Shown piece by piece: positions 1,023 through 14,947 of a DNA stretch of 64,000 nucleotides (its first letter is position 1; the number at the start of each line of letters is the position of its first letter). The notes under the pieces were generated by a model. It was not told the DNA's origin. It searched no databases and saw only the letters and a program-made list of their open reading frames with translations. Origin of the DNA: Haloquadratum walsbyi J07HQW2 (GTDB lineage: Archaea; Halobacteriota; Halobacteria; Halobacteriales; Haloferacaceae); NCBI RefSeq assembly GCF_000415985.1, contig NZ_KE356561.1, forward strand, positions 1,337,415-1,401,414. The letters run 5' to 3'. The translations under genes were made by a program, and so were the position numbers.

Positions 1023-2165
1023 TCATGCATCATGGTGAAACTCATCACTGCGTTCACGAGCGGCAGCAACAAGTAATGGAAGTGTAATTGTTGCATCTCC
1101 CAGTACCGTAGCGTTTGCCGCTGACCGTTCTAATTTCCCCCAAGATCGTGCCTCATCTAGTGTCGCTCCTGAGAGTCCACCAGTCGCATCCGAATCCATT
1201 GTCAACTGCACGCCATACTCATATGCACCAGGAATCGTGAGCATCGTCTGAAGAACGTAGTTCTTTGGCACACCCCCACCGACAACGACAGCACCAGCAT
1301 GCTCAGCGTCAAATGCACGGTCAGAAAGATGTGTCATATCACCAAGTGCGTCAAGACCAAATGATGAGGTCTGTGAGTATACCCATGCTTGGATTCCCAA
1401 AACTGAGTCCTGAATTGCAGGGCAATATATGGGAACATCATGATTGTATGCTGCCGCAGCAATGCCTGGATCCTCATCGATATCTTTTTGCGTATTTTCC
1501 TCAGCGTTTGCCCGTCCAAGTTCAGCGGTAAATTCTTGAATCGAGATTTGACGTTCTACAGCGGGGAAGACATTCTCTCGGAGATGTGTTTCTAAAAGCG
1601 CGAAGTGTTCCTGTGGAAGGTATACATTATAGATTCGATCAACACCTTCCTCGCGCAACTTTTCATCATGTGCACGTGTTCCATCATGAGAATGTGTCTG
1701 ATCCGAGCTATCTTTATTTTCATAATCTGAATCAGCATCAGATGACGAGTGAACCTGTCCGTGGTGATGTTTTCCACCAACGGCTTCAATCGCATCGTGT
1801 GTGAGATTTGCCCCTGTTGTGACAAGGGCGTCAATATGTCCATCGCGAATGAGATCGGTGACAATCTGTCTCATTCCAGCCGGAACCATCGCCCCAGCGA
1901 GCCCAAAGAAAATATCAATGTCATCGCGAGCAAGCATTTGCGCATAAATATCAACTGCATTATCCATCGAAGCCGCACCAATCCCCGCATGTCCATACTC
2001 GCTTGCGAGCTCCTCAGCCGACATTCCCGATTTTACCTGTGCATGTCGAATCGGATCTGGCTCAAATTCATCACGAGTATGTGTTGGTTCCTCTGTGTTG
2101 TCAGTATCTGATTTATTCTGCTCTGTGACATCGTCTGTTGACTGGTCGTCATGTGAATCACTCAT
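1023..2165 (-). CDS. dys: Deoxyhypusine synthase
   Basis: Transfers the aminobutyl group of a polyamine (agmatine or spermidine in archaea) to one lysine of translation factor aIF5A, the first step of hypusine formation, using NAD. The 380 residues contain the NAD/substrate region GLAGAMVPAGMRQI near residue 85, the TGANLTHD block, the VVVGGGVPKN block, and the catalytic-lysine motif SWGKL with Lys at about residue 344. There is an acidic Ser/Thr/Asp N-terminal extension of about 40 residues and a His/Asp/Ser-rich insertion near residues 133-170. Both look like salt-adapted additions. Its neighbour downstream is the NIF3-like gene on the opposite side of a short gap. Function is secure from motifs; substrate preference cannot be told. 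Confidence 0.93.
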   Translation of the reverse strand: MSDSHDDQSTDDVTEQNKSDTDNTEEPTHTRDEFEPDPIRHAQVKSGMSAEELASEYGHAGIGAASMDNAVDIYAQMLARDDIDIFFGLAGAMVPAGMRQIVTDLIRDGHIDALVTTGANLTHDAIEAVGGKHHHGQVHSSSDADSDYENKDSSDQTHSHDGTRAHDEKLREEGVDRIYNVYLPQEHFALLETHLRENVFPAVERQISIQEFTAELGRANAEENTQKDIDEDPGIAAAAYNHDVPIYCPAIQDSVLGIQAWVYSQTSSFGLDALGDMTHLSDRAFDAEHAGAVVVGGGVPKNYVLQTMLTIPGAYEYGVQLTMDSDATGGLSGATLDEARSWGKLERSAANATVLGDATITLPLLVAAARERSDEFHHDA

Positions 2166-3206: not shown

Positions 3207-4883
3207 CTATCCAATAAATGGTGGTGTGGCTGTTGGAAGTGAAACAAGCCAGAGGCTGACGATTGTGTATCCCATCATGACGAAGATGAAGGGATACTGA
3301 CTGCGGATTGCTTGTAATCGACTTGGAAAGAGTTGATACGCTGTTGAATGTGCAACCCAGATTGCAACAAGATGTCCGGCAAGGATAAATACAATATTGA
3401 TAGCCGAAATCCAGGCTGGCAGCGTCAATATTGCTGGATTTGACGGTGGTGAAAATGGTGAAATGACAGCACCAAACAACGATGGTGATAGTGACAAAAG
3501 AAACCCAACATAGTGTGCAAGGTGATAGCCAACAGCGATAGCGATAAGTGATGGAGCGAATGCAACAGTGAGATCAGTAGCCGACCACGTTGTGAGTAAC
3601 CGATCCGCTGCAATGCGACCAGCAAACAAAAATGCAGCATAGAACAATATAAATCCACCAATAAAGAGACAAAGATACGTAATCACCGACGGGATACCAC
3701 TTGCGACAATAGCTCGAATCACCGCACCACCTTGTGTTGTTGTTACAAACCCACTGAATGTGAGCTCCCACACAAGCATCACAGCAACCGCGATATCCGA
3801 GCGATCTTCGATAAGTGGTGAGATTTGATCTGTCGAGGATTCACTCAATGATGGTACTGCATCGTTATCTCTTGATTGCGATTGTGACTGCGGGTGCGCT
3901 GTTGTTTCAATCGAACCCAGTTGGTTCTCTCCACCGTCGGTGGTAGCATTTGATGATAGTGATTGAGCGTTCTTTGTAGCTGTTGGGTCAATTCGGCTGT
4001 TTCCGATAAGAGTCATCGCAGGAATGCTGATTTGAACCTGTCCATTGCTCCAGTTGAAAGGTGCCGCCTGTGAATAGAATCTGAAGAACACCGACACAGG
4101 ATCGATATTCCGGAACCATGCCTCCCGAAAGATGATAGCACCAATGATGCTCACAATAAGATATCCACCGATAACAAGTGCTAGCAACGTTGGACGGGTG
4201 GTAATGGCAGTTGTTGTTTCAATCCAGATTAATATAAAAAGTCCAAATAGCGCCGGCCATCGATCAAACTGAGAGGGATATGAGACTGAACTAACAGTGG
4301 TTGGAATCACTGTAGCAATACTATGTGCTGGATTAAGTATCATCCAGACGTTTCCAAATACGTATGATGTGATCGTAATTCCTGCACGAAACCCAGCGAA
4401 AATAATAATAATAGCGACATTCACCGTCGGAATCTGTGGTCCAGTCAGCCCACGGATAATGATAATTGCCGCAAGAGAAACACCAATAACCGCTCCAAAT
4501 CGGCGTCCCCAATCATAGACAGGGCGCCATACTGAGAACGTGCTATTCCATGTATGGATTCGATTAAGTAACCGTCTGTCTGTAATAAATCCAGCAAGAA
4601 GCGCAGATGCACCAATCGCAGCCCCACCAGTGGCAACATATAGCCACCGCGGGATCGAGAGTGCATTTTCCGATGCCTCCGATAGTCCGACTGCTGCATT
4701 ACTTGCTGCTACCTCCCCAGTGAATATACCGATAACTGAGAGTATAAGTATGAAACTAACAATGAGACAGGCTCGCGAACGTGCGAATACAGACCGTTTA
4801 ACTGCGAATATATCGCTATACTGTTTCCATGCCATTCTATCGGTTTTACTCGTGGGACCTGGACTAATGCCAGATTGACGCAT
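3207..4883 (-). CDS. Polytopic membrane protein, possible metal-handling partner
   Basis: A membrane protein of about 558 residues with roughly twelve hydrophobic helices in two halves, separated by a Ser/Thr/Asp-rich cytoplasmic-type linker around the middle. Conserved-looking features include NPAHS in the first half and histidines placed in or next to helices in the second half (GYHLAHY, GHLVAIWVAH). The frame stays open upstream to 5072, overlapping the zinc-finger gene. I chose Met at 4883 because the upstream stretch is polar and low in hydrophobic residues, but 5063 or 4835 are possible. It ends a run of three same-strand genes with almost no spacing: Tat lipoprotein, C2H2 protein, then this. 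It resembles a family sometimes labelled fenitrothion hydrolase, a name I consider unsupported. Transport of a metal is inference. Confidence 0.6.
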   Translation of the reverse strand: MRQSGISPGPTSKTDRMAWKQYSDIFAVKRSVFARSRACLIVSFILILSVIGIFTGEVAASNAAVGLSEASENALSIPRWLYVATGGAAIGASALLAGFITDRRLLNRIHTWNSTFSVWRPVYDWGRRFGAVIGVSLAAIIIIRGLTGPQIPTVNVAIIIIFAGFRAGITITSYVFGNVWMILNPAHSIATVIPTTVSSVSYPSQFDRWPALFGLFILIWIETTTAITTRPTLLALVIGGYLIVSIIGAIIFREAWFRNIDPVSVFFRFYSQAAPFNWSNGQVQISIPAMTLIGNSRIDPTATKNAQSLSSNATTDGGENQLGSIETTAHPQSQSQSRDNDAVPSLSESSTDQISPLIEDRSDIAVAVMLVWELTFSGFVTTTQGGAVIRAIVASGIPSVITYLCLFIGGFILFYAAFLFAGRIAADRLLTTWSATDLTVAFAPSLIAIAVGYHLAHYVGFLLSLSPSLFGAVISPFSPPSNPAILTLPAWISAINIVFILAGHLVAIWVAHSTAYQLFPSRLQAIRSQYPFIFVMMGYTIVSLWLVSLPTATPPFIG

Positions 4884-5052
4884 ATTGACTGAGCGACTAT
4901 TGATGTGCATTGACGAACAGTTGCCATTATCTGATGAAGAGCGCTCAAACGTATAGCGGTACCCAGACGGGTTATTGGAAGCGGGTATGCACCAGCCCAC
5001 TACGGTATCTTTCGATGAACATGAATCGGTCCTACCCGTTTGAGCTTGATCA

Positions 5053-5304
5053 TTAGGACGCATAAAGTACATATAAAAACAAAAATCCGAAGTACAACAC
5101 GACTAACACGCCAAGCGCACGGATACGAAATGAACGAATTGCAGCTTCTTCTGTACTATATGCCTCACGATACGCATTTTGTTCGTCTTTCGTCATCACC
5201 GCTGGATGTCGAATGCCACGATGTAGAATATGATTATCCGCTGTATAGAAGTGTCGTCCACAGACATCACAAATATATTTCGAGTCTGGAGCATCCTGTG
5301 ACAT
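5053..5304 (-). CDS. Single C2H2 zinc finger with C-terminal membrane anchor
   Basis: 83 residues. Near the N-terminus is one C2H2 finger with spacing CX2CX12HX4H (Cys12, Cys15, His28, His33). A charged linker follows (residues about 36-60), and one membrane helix (VLVVLYFGFLFLYVLY) lies at the C-terminus. The finger would sit on the cytoplasmic face. The start lies only 2 nt after the stop of the iron-transport-like lipoprotein gene, and the membrane-protein frame follows directly, so the three are probably co-transcribed. A membrane-tethered C2H2 finger in an archaeon could sense or deliver metal or tether a partner; the role is unknown. Confidence 0.75.
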   Translation of the reverse strand: MSQDAPDSKYICDVCGRHFYTADNHILHRGIRHPAVMTKDEQNAYREAYSTEEAAIRSFRIRALGVLVVLYFGFLFLYVLYAS

Positions 5305-5306
5305 AA

Positions 5307-6404
5307 TTACTTTATTTGAAGCGGTAGTGAAACAGGATCCATATTCATAAACGCGGTTTCATATCCATCATGTCGGGCAATCTGTGGTGGTATTGTTGTT
5401 TTGATTTCAAGCATGAGTTCATCTGATAGCTGAGTGAGATTAGGGATTGATGCCCCATAATGATACCCAAGATCCGGATCAAGTGTCCGTGTCAGCGTCT
5501 TTGTAGTAATTGACGCCTCATTTTGTGAGATCGTTGTTTCCAGTTGCATCATTGGAAGTATAATATTATTATATGGAGTCCGAGCAGAGACAATGAGATA
5601 TGGAGTCTCAGTGTCTCTCTCAGATCTTTCTTGAGTCATCACGAACACTTCAAGATGTGCATCATCGGTGACAACGGTTCCTGCATGATGACCCGGAAAC
5701 GCATCGATAGATGGAGCCTGTCCGATCGGGACGCCACTCATTGATACCGGGTCAATTGCGCCAGGTGTTCCTCCATCTTTGGGCTCTTCAATCGATATAT
5801 CGTATAATTTATCAATCGTAAATGTAAATGGAATTATCGCTGTTGTGGCTGATTCGAACGCATCTGCAAATGAACCACTCCGATAAAATGACATCCCGCC
5901 GATACTGATCTGTGCGGTATACTCACCTTCTCCATTTAAACTGTAATTTGACCCATAGTGAAGTCCCATTTGTTGTGAGATCATGGGATATGCAACTTCT
6001 TGAGTGATCAGTTCGCCGTCGCGTCGAACACTGATCGTTACGCCCGAATCGATTGGGAGTGGTTGGTTACTTTTTTTATCCCAAAGGGCAGCCATCAAAT
6101 GGATATCATCATCTGGCTCAACTGGTGTTTTTTGATTTTCTTGACCGGCAAGGGTCCAAAATCGATGTGGATATGAGTACATCAATGCAACACCATAGCG
6201 ACCAGCAGTTGTTTGACCATACATACCCATTCCCTCGGTTATTGCTGGAATGTATACACCATCTGGACGATCCGACGCTAATGGTGGATCTCGCCAAGCT
6301 GACCTCCTCTCAAAACCAATTTGCTGGAGACATCCAGTAGAACCTGCCAATGCCAGCGACGTCACACTTGCGAGTAGACCACGCCGGGTAAATGATGATG
6401 ACAT
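5307..6404 (-). CDS. Tat-exported lipoprotein, iron-transport (Tp34/P19-like, DUF7350) family
   Basis: 365 residues. The N-terminus has a Tat-type signal (FTRRGLL) and a lipobox (AGSTGC), so the mature protein would be lipid-anchored outside the cell. The body has two beta-rich repeats. Met/His blocks GMGMYG, YPHRF, MGLHYGSNY, GHHAG and GYHYGA are spread through it. These recall the periplasmic iron/copper-binding Tp34/P19 proteins that feed high-affinity Fe(II) uptake. It is the first gene of the three-gene unit with the C2H2-anchor protein and the polytopic membrane protein. The family name is from recall; metal identity cannot be read from the sequence. Confidence 0.72.
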   Translation of the reverse strand: MSSSFTRRGLLASVTSLALAGSTGCLQQIGFERRSAWRDPPLASDRPDGVYIPAITEGMGMYGQTTAGRYGVALMYSYPHRFWTLAGQENQKTPVEPDDDIHLMAALWDKKSNQPLPIDSGVTISVRRDGELITQEVAYPMISQQMGLHYGSNYSLNGEGEYTAQISIGGMSFYRSGSFADAFESATTAIIPFTFTIDKLYDISIEEPKDGGTPGAIDPVSMSGVPIGQAPSIDAFPGHHAGTVVTDDAHLEVFVMTQERSERDTETPYLIVSARTPYNNIILPMMQLETTISQNEASITTKTLTRTLDPDLGYHYGASIPNLTQLSDELMLEIKTTIPPQIARHDGYETAFMNMDPVSLPLQIK

Positions 6405-13098: not shown

Positions 13099-14601
13099 TT
13101 AAGCTACCTGATCTGCCATTTTTTCAGCAGTCAATTGCCCGCTGATGAGACACATTGGAACGCCAATTCCCGGCGTGGTAAATGATCCAGTAAAGTACAG
13201 TCCATCGACAGCCGAGGAATGATGTCCAGGGCGAAGAAGTGCCGTTTGTTCAAGGGTATGTGCAAGTCCGAGTGCCGTCCCGGCAGTGCTGTTATACCGC
13301 TCTGCAAAGTCATCGACACAGAATGACCGTTCAACAACAATCCGGTCACGCAAGTCAACATCTGTGTGCTCAGCAATATCATCTAAGATGAGATTGCGAT
13401 ACCGTTGTCGTTGCTCCTCAGAGTCATCAAGTCCAGCCGCAATTGGGACGAGTGCGAAAAGATTTGAATGACCATCGGGTGCGACATCATCATCAGTTTG
13501 TGAGGGAACACAAAGATAATATGCTGGGTCCGCAGGCCAAGCCGGGTCATCGAATATTTTCTCAAAGTGCTCATCCCAGTCTGTCGGAAGCACAAGAGAA
13601 TGGTGAGCGAGATCACCAACATCGCCTTCGACGCCAAGATACAGTAAGAATGCTGATGGTGCATATGTCCGTGAATCCCAATAATCAGCGTCATACTGTC
13701 GTTTCTCTGGAGGAAGTAGCTCCATTTCTGTATGCCGGTAATCCGCGTTACTCACGACATACTCAGAGTAAAATTCTGCGTCGGTCTTTGTTCGGGTGAC
13801 AAACGCTCCTTCTTGACCACGAATTTCTGAGACAGGTGCGTTTGTGTGAAATGTAACCCCCAGTTCGTCTGCGAGTTCAACAATGCCGTCCACAACGCCC
13901 CCAACTCCATTCTCAGGATAATACACACCCATATTAAAATCAACATGGCTCATTAGGTTGTATAGTGCCGGCGTATTTGTCGGGGCTCCGCCGAGGAACA
14001 CGAGCGTGTATTGCATAATCTGCTGGAGTTTTGGATGGTCAAAATATCGCTCAACATGGTCCTGCATTGACCCCATCAATGACAACCCGCGGGCGTTCTT
14101 CATGACATCTAAATCAACGTAATCGGACAGTTCAGCTCGGTCCTCATATACGAAGTGTTCCATTCCAACTTCGTAATTTTTCTTTGATTTTTCAAGATAC
14201 TCATCAAAGCGATCACCGGCACCGGGCTCATATGATTCGAATACCTCTCGATTCTGTTCACGGTCAGGAACCATCTCAACGCGGTCACCGTCTTTAAAGA
14301 AGATGCGATAATGAGGATCAAGCCGGGTCAGCTCATAATATTCACTCGGTTCACGATCGAAGTAATTGAAAAATCGCTCAAAGACATCAGGCATCAGGTA
14401 CCACGATGGACCCATATCGAATTTGAATCCATCAACTTCAAGTCGGCTTGCGCGTCCGCCGAGTTGTTCGTTCTTTTCAAGAACCGTGACATCCGCACCT
14501 GCATCAGCGAGATAGCAAGCCGTAGAAAGTCCACCAAAGCCACCACCGATGACGACGACAGATGACCCGTCGGCGTCACTCAGATCTGAGACTGTATTCA
14601 T
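13099..14601 (-). CDS. crtD: Carotenoid 3,4-desaturase
   Basis: About 500 residues. The N-terminal FAD-binding motif VVVIGGGFGGLSTACYLADA is followed by LEKNEQLGGRAS. The C-terminal FAD block contains GLYFTGSFTTPGIGVP, both typical of CrtI/CrtD phytoene-desaturase-type oxidoreductases. Next to lyeJ and cruF it most likely introduces the 3,4 double bonds of bacterioruberin precursors rather than desaturating phytoene. The frame is open upstream to 14739, but a TATA-like TTTTATTG 28 nt before Met at 14601 supports a leaderless start there; Met at 14607 is the alternative. Confidence 0.9.
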   Translation of the reverse strand: MNTVSDLSDADGSSVVVIGGGFGGLSTACYLADAGADVTVLEKNEQLGGRASRLEVDGFKFDMGPSWYLMPDVFERFFNYFDREPSEYYELTRLDPHYRIFFKDGDRVEMVPDREQNREVFESYEPGAGDRFDEYLEKSKKNYEVGMEHFVYEDRAELSDYVDLDVMKNARGLSLMGSMQDHVERYFDHPKLQQIMQYTLVFLGGAPTNTPALYNLMSHVDFNMGVYYPENGVGGVVDGIVELADELGVTFHTNAPVSEIRGQEGAFVTRTKTDAEFYSEYVVSNADYRHTEMELLPPEKRQYDADYWDSRTYAPSAFLLYLGVEGDVGDLAHHSLVLPTDWDEHFEKIFDDPAWPADPAYYLCVPSQTDDDVAPDGHSNLFALVPIAAGLDDSEEQRQRYRNLILDDIAEHTDVDLRDRIVVERSFCVDDFAERYNSTAGTALGLAHTLEQTALLRPGHHSSAVDGLYFTGSFTTPGIGVPMCLISGQLTAEKMADQVA

Positions 14602-14624
14602 ATACATTGGTAAGACCGTCAGAG

Positions 14625-14632
14625 CAATAAAA
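14625..14632 (-). promoter_or_regulatory. TATA box of the crtD-lyeJ-cruF operon
   Basis: The minus strand reads GTTTTATTG, centred about 28 nt from the Met codon at 14601. It is inferred from spacing and helps choose the crtD start. Confidence 0.45.
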
Positions 14633-14947
14633 CGACTGACTATCAAAGCATATCTGTCCATAATAGGAATTAGGTAATGATTACACGTGTCACTGAGTTT
14701 ACGCTGATTATGCCTAGTTTTAACGACAAAGATTGACAATACTAGGATTTTCTAGTGAAGAGTGTGATTCTTTTCTTAAGCATCTCAGGAGTGAATTCTG
14801 TGGCATCTCAGTGAACTGACTCGGGGTCAATCCCCATGGTATTCGCCTCGGTTTTCTGTAAAATTACTATCGTATCGAAAGCATGAGATTTGACAGAAGA
14901 ATTAGTACATAGAACATTTTTTACCATCGCAAAGGGTAAGTCTCGAA

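Follow-up and report, generated by a model that had tools for sequence, protein, structure and literature searches.

Three genes lying between 3207 and 6404 on the minus strand of the window, a stretch of 64,000 nucleotides from Haloquadratum walsbyi J07HQW2, seem on balance to encode a system for copper acquisition and hand-off across the cytoplasmic membrane, a reading in which our confidence is slightly better than even. By analogy, the module resembles the P19-FTR1, EfeUOB and CopC-CopD pairs, its membrane component coming from a family that carries no name, and in the best reading this family has replaced FTR1 or CopD and a membrane-tethered finger has been added. We infer that the metal is copper rather than iron and that the membrane component transports rather than assembles, and likewise the direction of transfer and the role of the finger. 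The sequence-only reading had taken the genes for a metal system, and this part holds; its generic metal, on the other hand, gives way to copper and haem-copper oxidases, which are favoured by the genomic context.

Gene 1 (5307-6404, minus strand) encodes a lipoprotein of 365 amino acids, gene 2 (5053-5304, minus strand) a finger protein of 83 amino acids, and gene 3 (3207-5063, minus strand, with the reading frame open to 5072) a polytopic protein of 621 amino acids counted from 5072. The close packing claimed for them is found, with two bases between genes 1 and 2 and an overlap of gene 2 with gene 3. Since the relatives of gene 3 likewise start with MRPxxQ, its start is probably the ATG at 5063 (MRPNDQ...), which makes the overlap with gene 2 11 bases long. 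All three reading frames are conserved at the protein level throughout the class and are thus far beyond chance. The module is flanked by a NIF3-family gene and a gene for deoxyhypusine synthase on one side, and by sucD-sucC on the other. Scans for sigma-70 promoters and terminators gave matches at chance level only, the models being ill-suited to an archaeon. The deoxyhypusine synthase (window 1023-2165) contains an acidic, His-rich stretch (KHHHGQVHSSSDADSDYENKDSSDQTHSHDG) within its domain match.

The product of gene 1 is predicted to be a Tat-exported lipoprotein with a P19/FtrA/FetP/Tp34-like domain and a DUF7350 domain. The Tat signal (TRRGLLA) and the lipobox Cys25 (6330-6404, minus strand) are conserved in 28 relatives, R7 and R8 of the Tat pair each being found in 96% and G24-C25 of the lipobox in all of them (28/28; 100% for C25). 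The P19-like metal domain comprises residues 57-162 (5919-6236, minus strand), where E57, M59, H80, H102, M104, M141, M146 and H149 are all invariant (28/28), and M141 and H149 fall in a stretch that aligns with PMVA.DGPHYG of FtrA and FetP. The DUF7350 domain, with its conserved RHDGYETAF, makes up residues 235-360 (5325-5702, minus strand). Pfam scores were 157 bits for DUF7350 and 25.8 bits for Iron_transport (PF10634), the latter above its cut-off of 21. A profile of the 28 relatives matched FtrA in the PDB (E 2e-7) as well as FetP and P19, and Tp34 weakly, while a weak structure model (pLDDT 55) gave FetP, FtrA and P19 as the top Foldseek matches (E 6e-6; TM-score to the query 0.26). The suggested kinship to P19 and Tp34 is thus confirmed, with the P19 beta-sandwich as its putative fold. 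Judged by its sequence, gene 1 encodes a member of the P19 family with the predicted metal residues intact.

Solved members of the P19 family bind copper, and the bacterial proteins serve iron uptake despite binding it. Relatives of gene 1 are present in 168 of 194 haloarchaeal genomes, while FTR1, already noted to be missing as a partner, was absent from the window's genome and found in 0 of 59 haloarchaeal genomes. Scanning genome contigs with the lipoprotein as query gave two loci only. A second, shortened relative of gene 1 is found in the same genome (G000:C1:3508930-3509508), with 58% identity over residues 5-194; it is fused in frame to unrelated sequence and looks like a broken copy. 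It could be argued that gene 1 acts as P19, FtrA and FetP do, with copper merely as a cofactor, and that gene 3 is an iron permease replacing FTR1. The P19 relatives that have been characterised take part, with FTR1, in the uptake of ferrous iron, the EfeUOB iron system also carries cupredoxin-like domains (PMC9174327), and the P19-like lipoproteins are this widespread in haloarchaea that lack FTR1. We nevertheless regard iron uptake as unlikely, as gene 3 displays conserved His and Met instead of an acidic iron motif, and in archaea as well as bacteria it neighbours copper enzymes and chaperones.

Searches of Pfam, NCBIfam and the PDB gave no match to the membrane protein encoded by gene 3, whether it was used singly or as a set of 27 relatives. 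The candidates FTR1 (PF03239; 0 matches in 27 members, and no conserved REXXE), CopD (PF05425; 0 matches in 27 haloarchaeal and three bacterial members) and CtaG or Cox11 (no Pfam or NCBIfam match) were all rejected. REXXE is missing from the window's protein, as had been remarked, and it is no feature of the family, occurring sporadically in 15 of 85 relatives. The protein is polytopic as proposed, but the number of hydrophobic segments is about 11, including an N-terminal one, and so slightly below the 12 or so helices first suggested. The charges of its loops alternate according to the positive-inside rule, which fits a polytopic topology whose mature N-terminus faces outward. The His/Met core lies in the last helices (3276-3524, minus strand) and consists of H517, H520, H567, H575 and M599 in the 621-residue numbering. 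All 85 sequences compared, bacteria included, share H520, H567, H575 and M599, while H517 is found in 77 of the 80 haloarchaeal ones; the remaining five of the 85 are outgroup members, four of them bacterial. Structure prediction of gene 3 failed (pLDDT 39, from an alignment of only three sequences), and a pore or pathway is therefore not visible.

The N-terminus of the protein differs between clades. The COX3-linked clade, like several bacterial and outlying members, has an A-x-A resembling the end of a signal peptide with a His right after it; in the window's clade the same site is Ser-Asn. Other proteins are known to bind copper through a mature N-terminal His, and the one in gene 3 may possibly be a ligand too, its exposure by cleavage being putative.

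The protein encoded by gene 2 (5053-5304, minus strand) is DUF7410-like and combines a C2H2 finger with a single transmembrane helix at the C-terminus. From the N-terminus it is made up of the finger (5206-5271, minus strand; C12, C15, H28 and H33), an acidic helix, a basic stretch and the hydrophobic helix (5062-5118, minus strand), which is immediately preceded by Arg residues. That the 83-residue protein is a tethered C2H2 finger was borne out by its relatives, in which the pattern C-x2-C-x12-H-x4-H is whole in 39 of 39 and is followed by a single hydrophobic helix. By the positive-inside rule, the basic stretch ahead of the helix would place the finger on the cytoplasmic side. The ligand spacing agrees with C-x2-C-x12-H-x3-5-H of the C2H2 zinc finger family (PF00096). 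The window copy scores below the cut-offs of both PF00096 (14.4 vs. 25.2 bits) and DUF7410 (10.5 vs. 27.5 bits); an oxidase-linked relative reaches 37.3 bits with the latter. The part of the module that is least accounted for is the finger, which might be an acceptor, a gate, an assembly factor or a structural subunit. That it senses or shuttles the metal is a guess, as an invariant C2H2 set fits a structural zinc site equally well. No finger gene was seen in the bacterial gene 3 loci or beside several of the lipoprotein-linked haloarchaeal copies, which suggests an archaeal accessory rather than a core component.

Conserved linkage of the genes had been named beforehand as a test of the module, and it was found. 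Gene 3 is present in 136 of 194 haloarchaeal genomes. The order lipoprotein-finger-gene 3 occurs in the window and in eight other loci examined, and finger-gene 3 or gene 3-lipoprotein pairs in other orders and orientations were found in many more, so that adjacency recurs across families. Haloferax mediterranei has the three-gene operon on plasmid pHME505. In order to limit selection, 40 copies of gene 3 without a known lipoprotein neighbour were sampled, and the finger gene adjoins 38 of these. Where the lipoprotein and gene 3 are linked they diverge in step (Mantel r 0.88, a statistic that ignores species history). The genes can also be separated; the finger and gene 3 are found without the lipoprotein, and gene 3 and the lipoprotein without a detectable finger. 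In genome G126 (L072, L071) the lipoprotein gene has stayed by sucCD while some 230 kb separate it from the finger and gene 3, so that even within the genus the operon is no fixed arrangement. Such splits are what would be expected if the genes were unrelated neighbours packed by ordinary gene density, but this is contradicted by the recurring adjacency and the correlated divergence, and we consider it very improbable.

The sample chosen away from lipoprotein genes also revealed the surroundings of gene 3. COX1, COX2 or COX3 is found within about 6 kb of 33 of the 40 copies, and a haem O synthase gene is also near 12 of them. In 20 control stretches located 500 kb off in the same genomes, COX genes were found in none (0/20; Fisher p 2e-10, for sequences that are not phylogenetically independent). 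The oxidase-linked copies fall mainly into two separate clades with different oxidases, one beside COX3 and the other, nested inside the clade that has the lipoprotein as partner, beside COX1-COX2. A strong COX3 match was found in 125 of the 136 genomes with gene 3 and in nine of the 58 without, at a threshold picked after the data had been seen (exponents 24 to 28 yield the same picture); this profile is partly confounded by genus, and counted by genus the association has p 1e-6. In g2, a genus of the same family with 21 genomes, gene 3 is absent throughout and only weak COX3 matches are found. In the window's own genome, a long distance separates the module from COX1 and COX3.

These neighbours suggest a second explanation, in which gene 3 takes part in oxidase biogenesis, either by inserting copper as CtaG/Cox11 would or by binding haem through its paired His. 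Such an assembly factor would fit the close association with the genes for COX3, COX2, COX1 and haem O synthase, and haem could be ligated by the paired invariant His of two adjacent helices. However, most members of the window's own clade pair with a P19-like lipoprotein and have no oxidase nearby, the bacterial copies are found near monooxygenases and unrelated genes, and the family matches none of the CtaG, Cox11 or CopD models. SCO is moreover present separately in the window's genome, so gene 3 is not a substitute for a missing SCO. An assembly role thus appears improbable to us. Oxidases also need iron in the form of haem, and the context by itself is therefore compatible with iron as well as copper. 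Some caution on copper is due because the bacterial P19 systems serve iron, and because a heavy-metal ATPase adjoining the module in Haloferax leans towards Zn/Cd, the models for these metals outscoring the copper model.

Searches with a consensus query, followed by searches with two bacterial members, found relatives of gene 3 on plasmids of Actinobacteria and Proteobacteria. The idea of an unrecorded haloarchaeal metal system must be adjusted accordingly; no described counterpart was found, but the gene 3 family is also bacterial and so not specific to haloarchaea. Gene 3 is immediately preceded, at seven actinobacterial loci and in Variovorax, by a gene for a small protein with a conserved H-x-H and mostly a signal- or lipoprotein-like start. 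A profile of these proteins matched the CuA domains of cytochrome oxidase subunit 2 best in the PDB. As this match is weak (E 0.004), a cupredoxin-like identity is probable rather than proven. Genes for the copper membrane monooxygenase hmoCAB are found near gene 3 in two mycobacteria, M. chubuense and M. dioxanotrophicus. In another, M. gallinarum, CopC is encoded close upstream, with COX3 and an oxidase assembly gene around the locus, and the Sulfitobacter locus contains a gene for a PCu(A)C protein. In several alphaproteobacterial loci no copper gene was seen, the neighbours being nicotinate and amino-acid genes. A search of viral contigs for further relatives gave none. The idea that the bacterial relatives are annotated as 'fenitrothion hydrolase' was dropped, as the records read 'hypothetical protein' and a literature search gave nothing useful. 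The passages searched of a paper on archaeal hydrocarbon monooxygenases make no mention of a gene 3-like protein.

When it comes to known systems, P19-cFTR1, FetMP and FtrABCD all have a gene for an outer P19-family protein beside one for a polytopic membrane protein, and the P19 domain of gene 1 shares their ligand-bearing motif. The module differs from them in that its membrane partner is not FTR1 and has no conserved REXXE, in the addition of DUF7350 to the lipoprotein, and in the tethered finger. EfeUOB, where a cupredoxin-like outer domain serves a membrane permease, is comparable to the bacterial gene 3 loci, but its permease is unrelated in sequence to gene 3, and neither EfeB nor an imelysin-like component was encountered next to the module. 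CopC-CopD and YcnJ similarly combine an outer copper protein with a polytopic membrane protein, and CopD/YcnJ have been suggested to act in copper import (PMC7558416); gene 3, however, has no CopD match, and CopD-like genes are found at other loci in haloarchaea. CcoA (CalT) imports copper for the cbb3 oxidase, and its suspected ligands are Met and His (PMC5829832). It resembles gene 3 in its candidate Met/His ligands and in the dedicated copper supply to a haem-copper oxidase that is proposed here. CcoA belongs to the MFS and serves cbb3 oxidases, whereas gene 3 gives no match to MFS models and in haloarchaea is linked to oxidase genes of the COX1-COX2-COX3 type.

The outer partners of gene 3 are of three kinds, all of them copper-binding types, and copper enzymes recur nearby; the simplest reading is thus that gene 3 handles copper delivered to it. 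In the copper hand-off proposed here, the outer-anchored lipoprotein would bind copper through its P19-type Met/His site and pass it to gene 3, which would move it inward or to a client along H517/H520, H567/H575 and M599 in the last helices. The finger, facing the cytoplasm, might receive the metal, gate gene 3 or hold it in a complex. In other genomes, cupredoxin-like proteins, PCu(A)C or possibly the N-terminal His of gene 3 itself would act as donors, and haem-copper oxidases or copper monooxygenases would be supplied by the family. A wider and more tentative proposal, to which we give somewhat less than even credence, makes gene 3 the first member of a new copper transporter family that spans two domains of life, with interchangeable outer donors (P19-like, cupredoxin-like and PCu(A)C proteins) and with haem-copper oxidases and copper monooxygenases as clients. 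Gene 3 would then be the aa3 importer, and the haloarchaeal finger the cytoplasmic acceptor.

The route by which copper reaches CuB of the aa3-type oxidases is a standing question, and the importer for these oxidases is drawn as an unknown box in a published scheme (PMC5829832). A survey of copper genes in Haloferax mediterranei cites the view that a specific heavy-metal uptake system is not known (PMC9240420). Gene 3 offers a concrete candidate that is readily deleted. If the copper reading is true, gene 3 may be the missing path for copper to copper proteins and to the oxygen-consuming oxidases. It would also explain why haloarchaea have P19-type proteins without FTR1, and provide the first functional setting for DUF7350 and DUF7410, on which a literature search found no paper.

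Some gene 3 loci deviate from those described above. In G156 (L076:9499-11084, 14574-14939) a transcription factor B-like gene is found between the finger and gene 3, and in this genome as well as in Haladaptatus (L110:9729-10088) a gene for a truncated haemoglobin lies a few kb from gene 3. A third, divergent clade of gene 3 (L068:10315-16001, L079:7242-14452 and L111:4238-7023) adjoins a beta-propeller gene, and in L068 and L079 a DUF7405 gene and relatives of gene 1 are found nearby. In this clade the first His (H517) is replaced by Glu.
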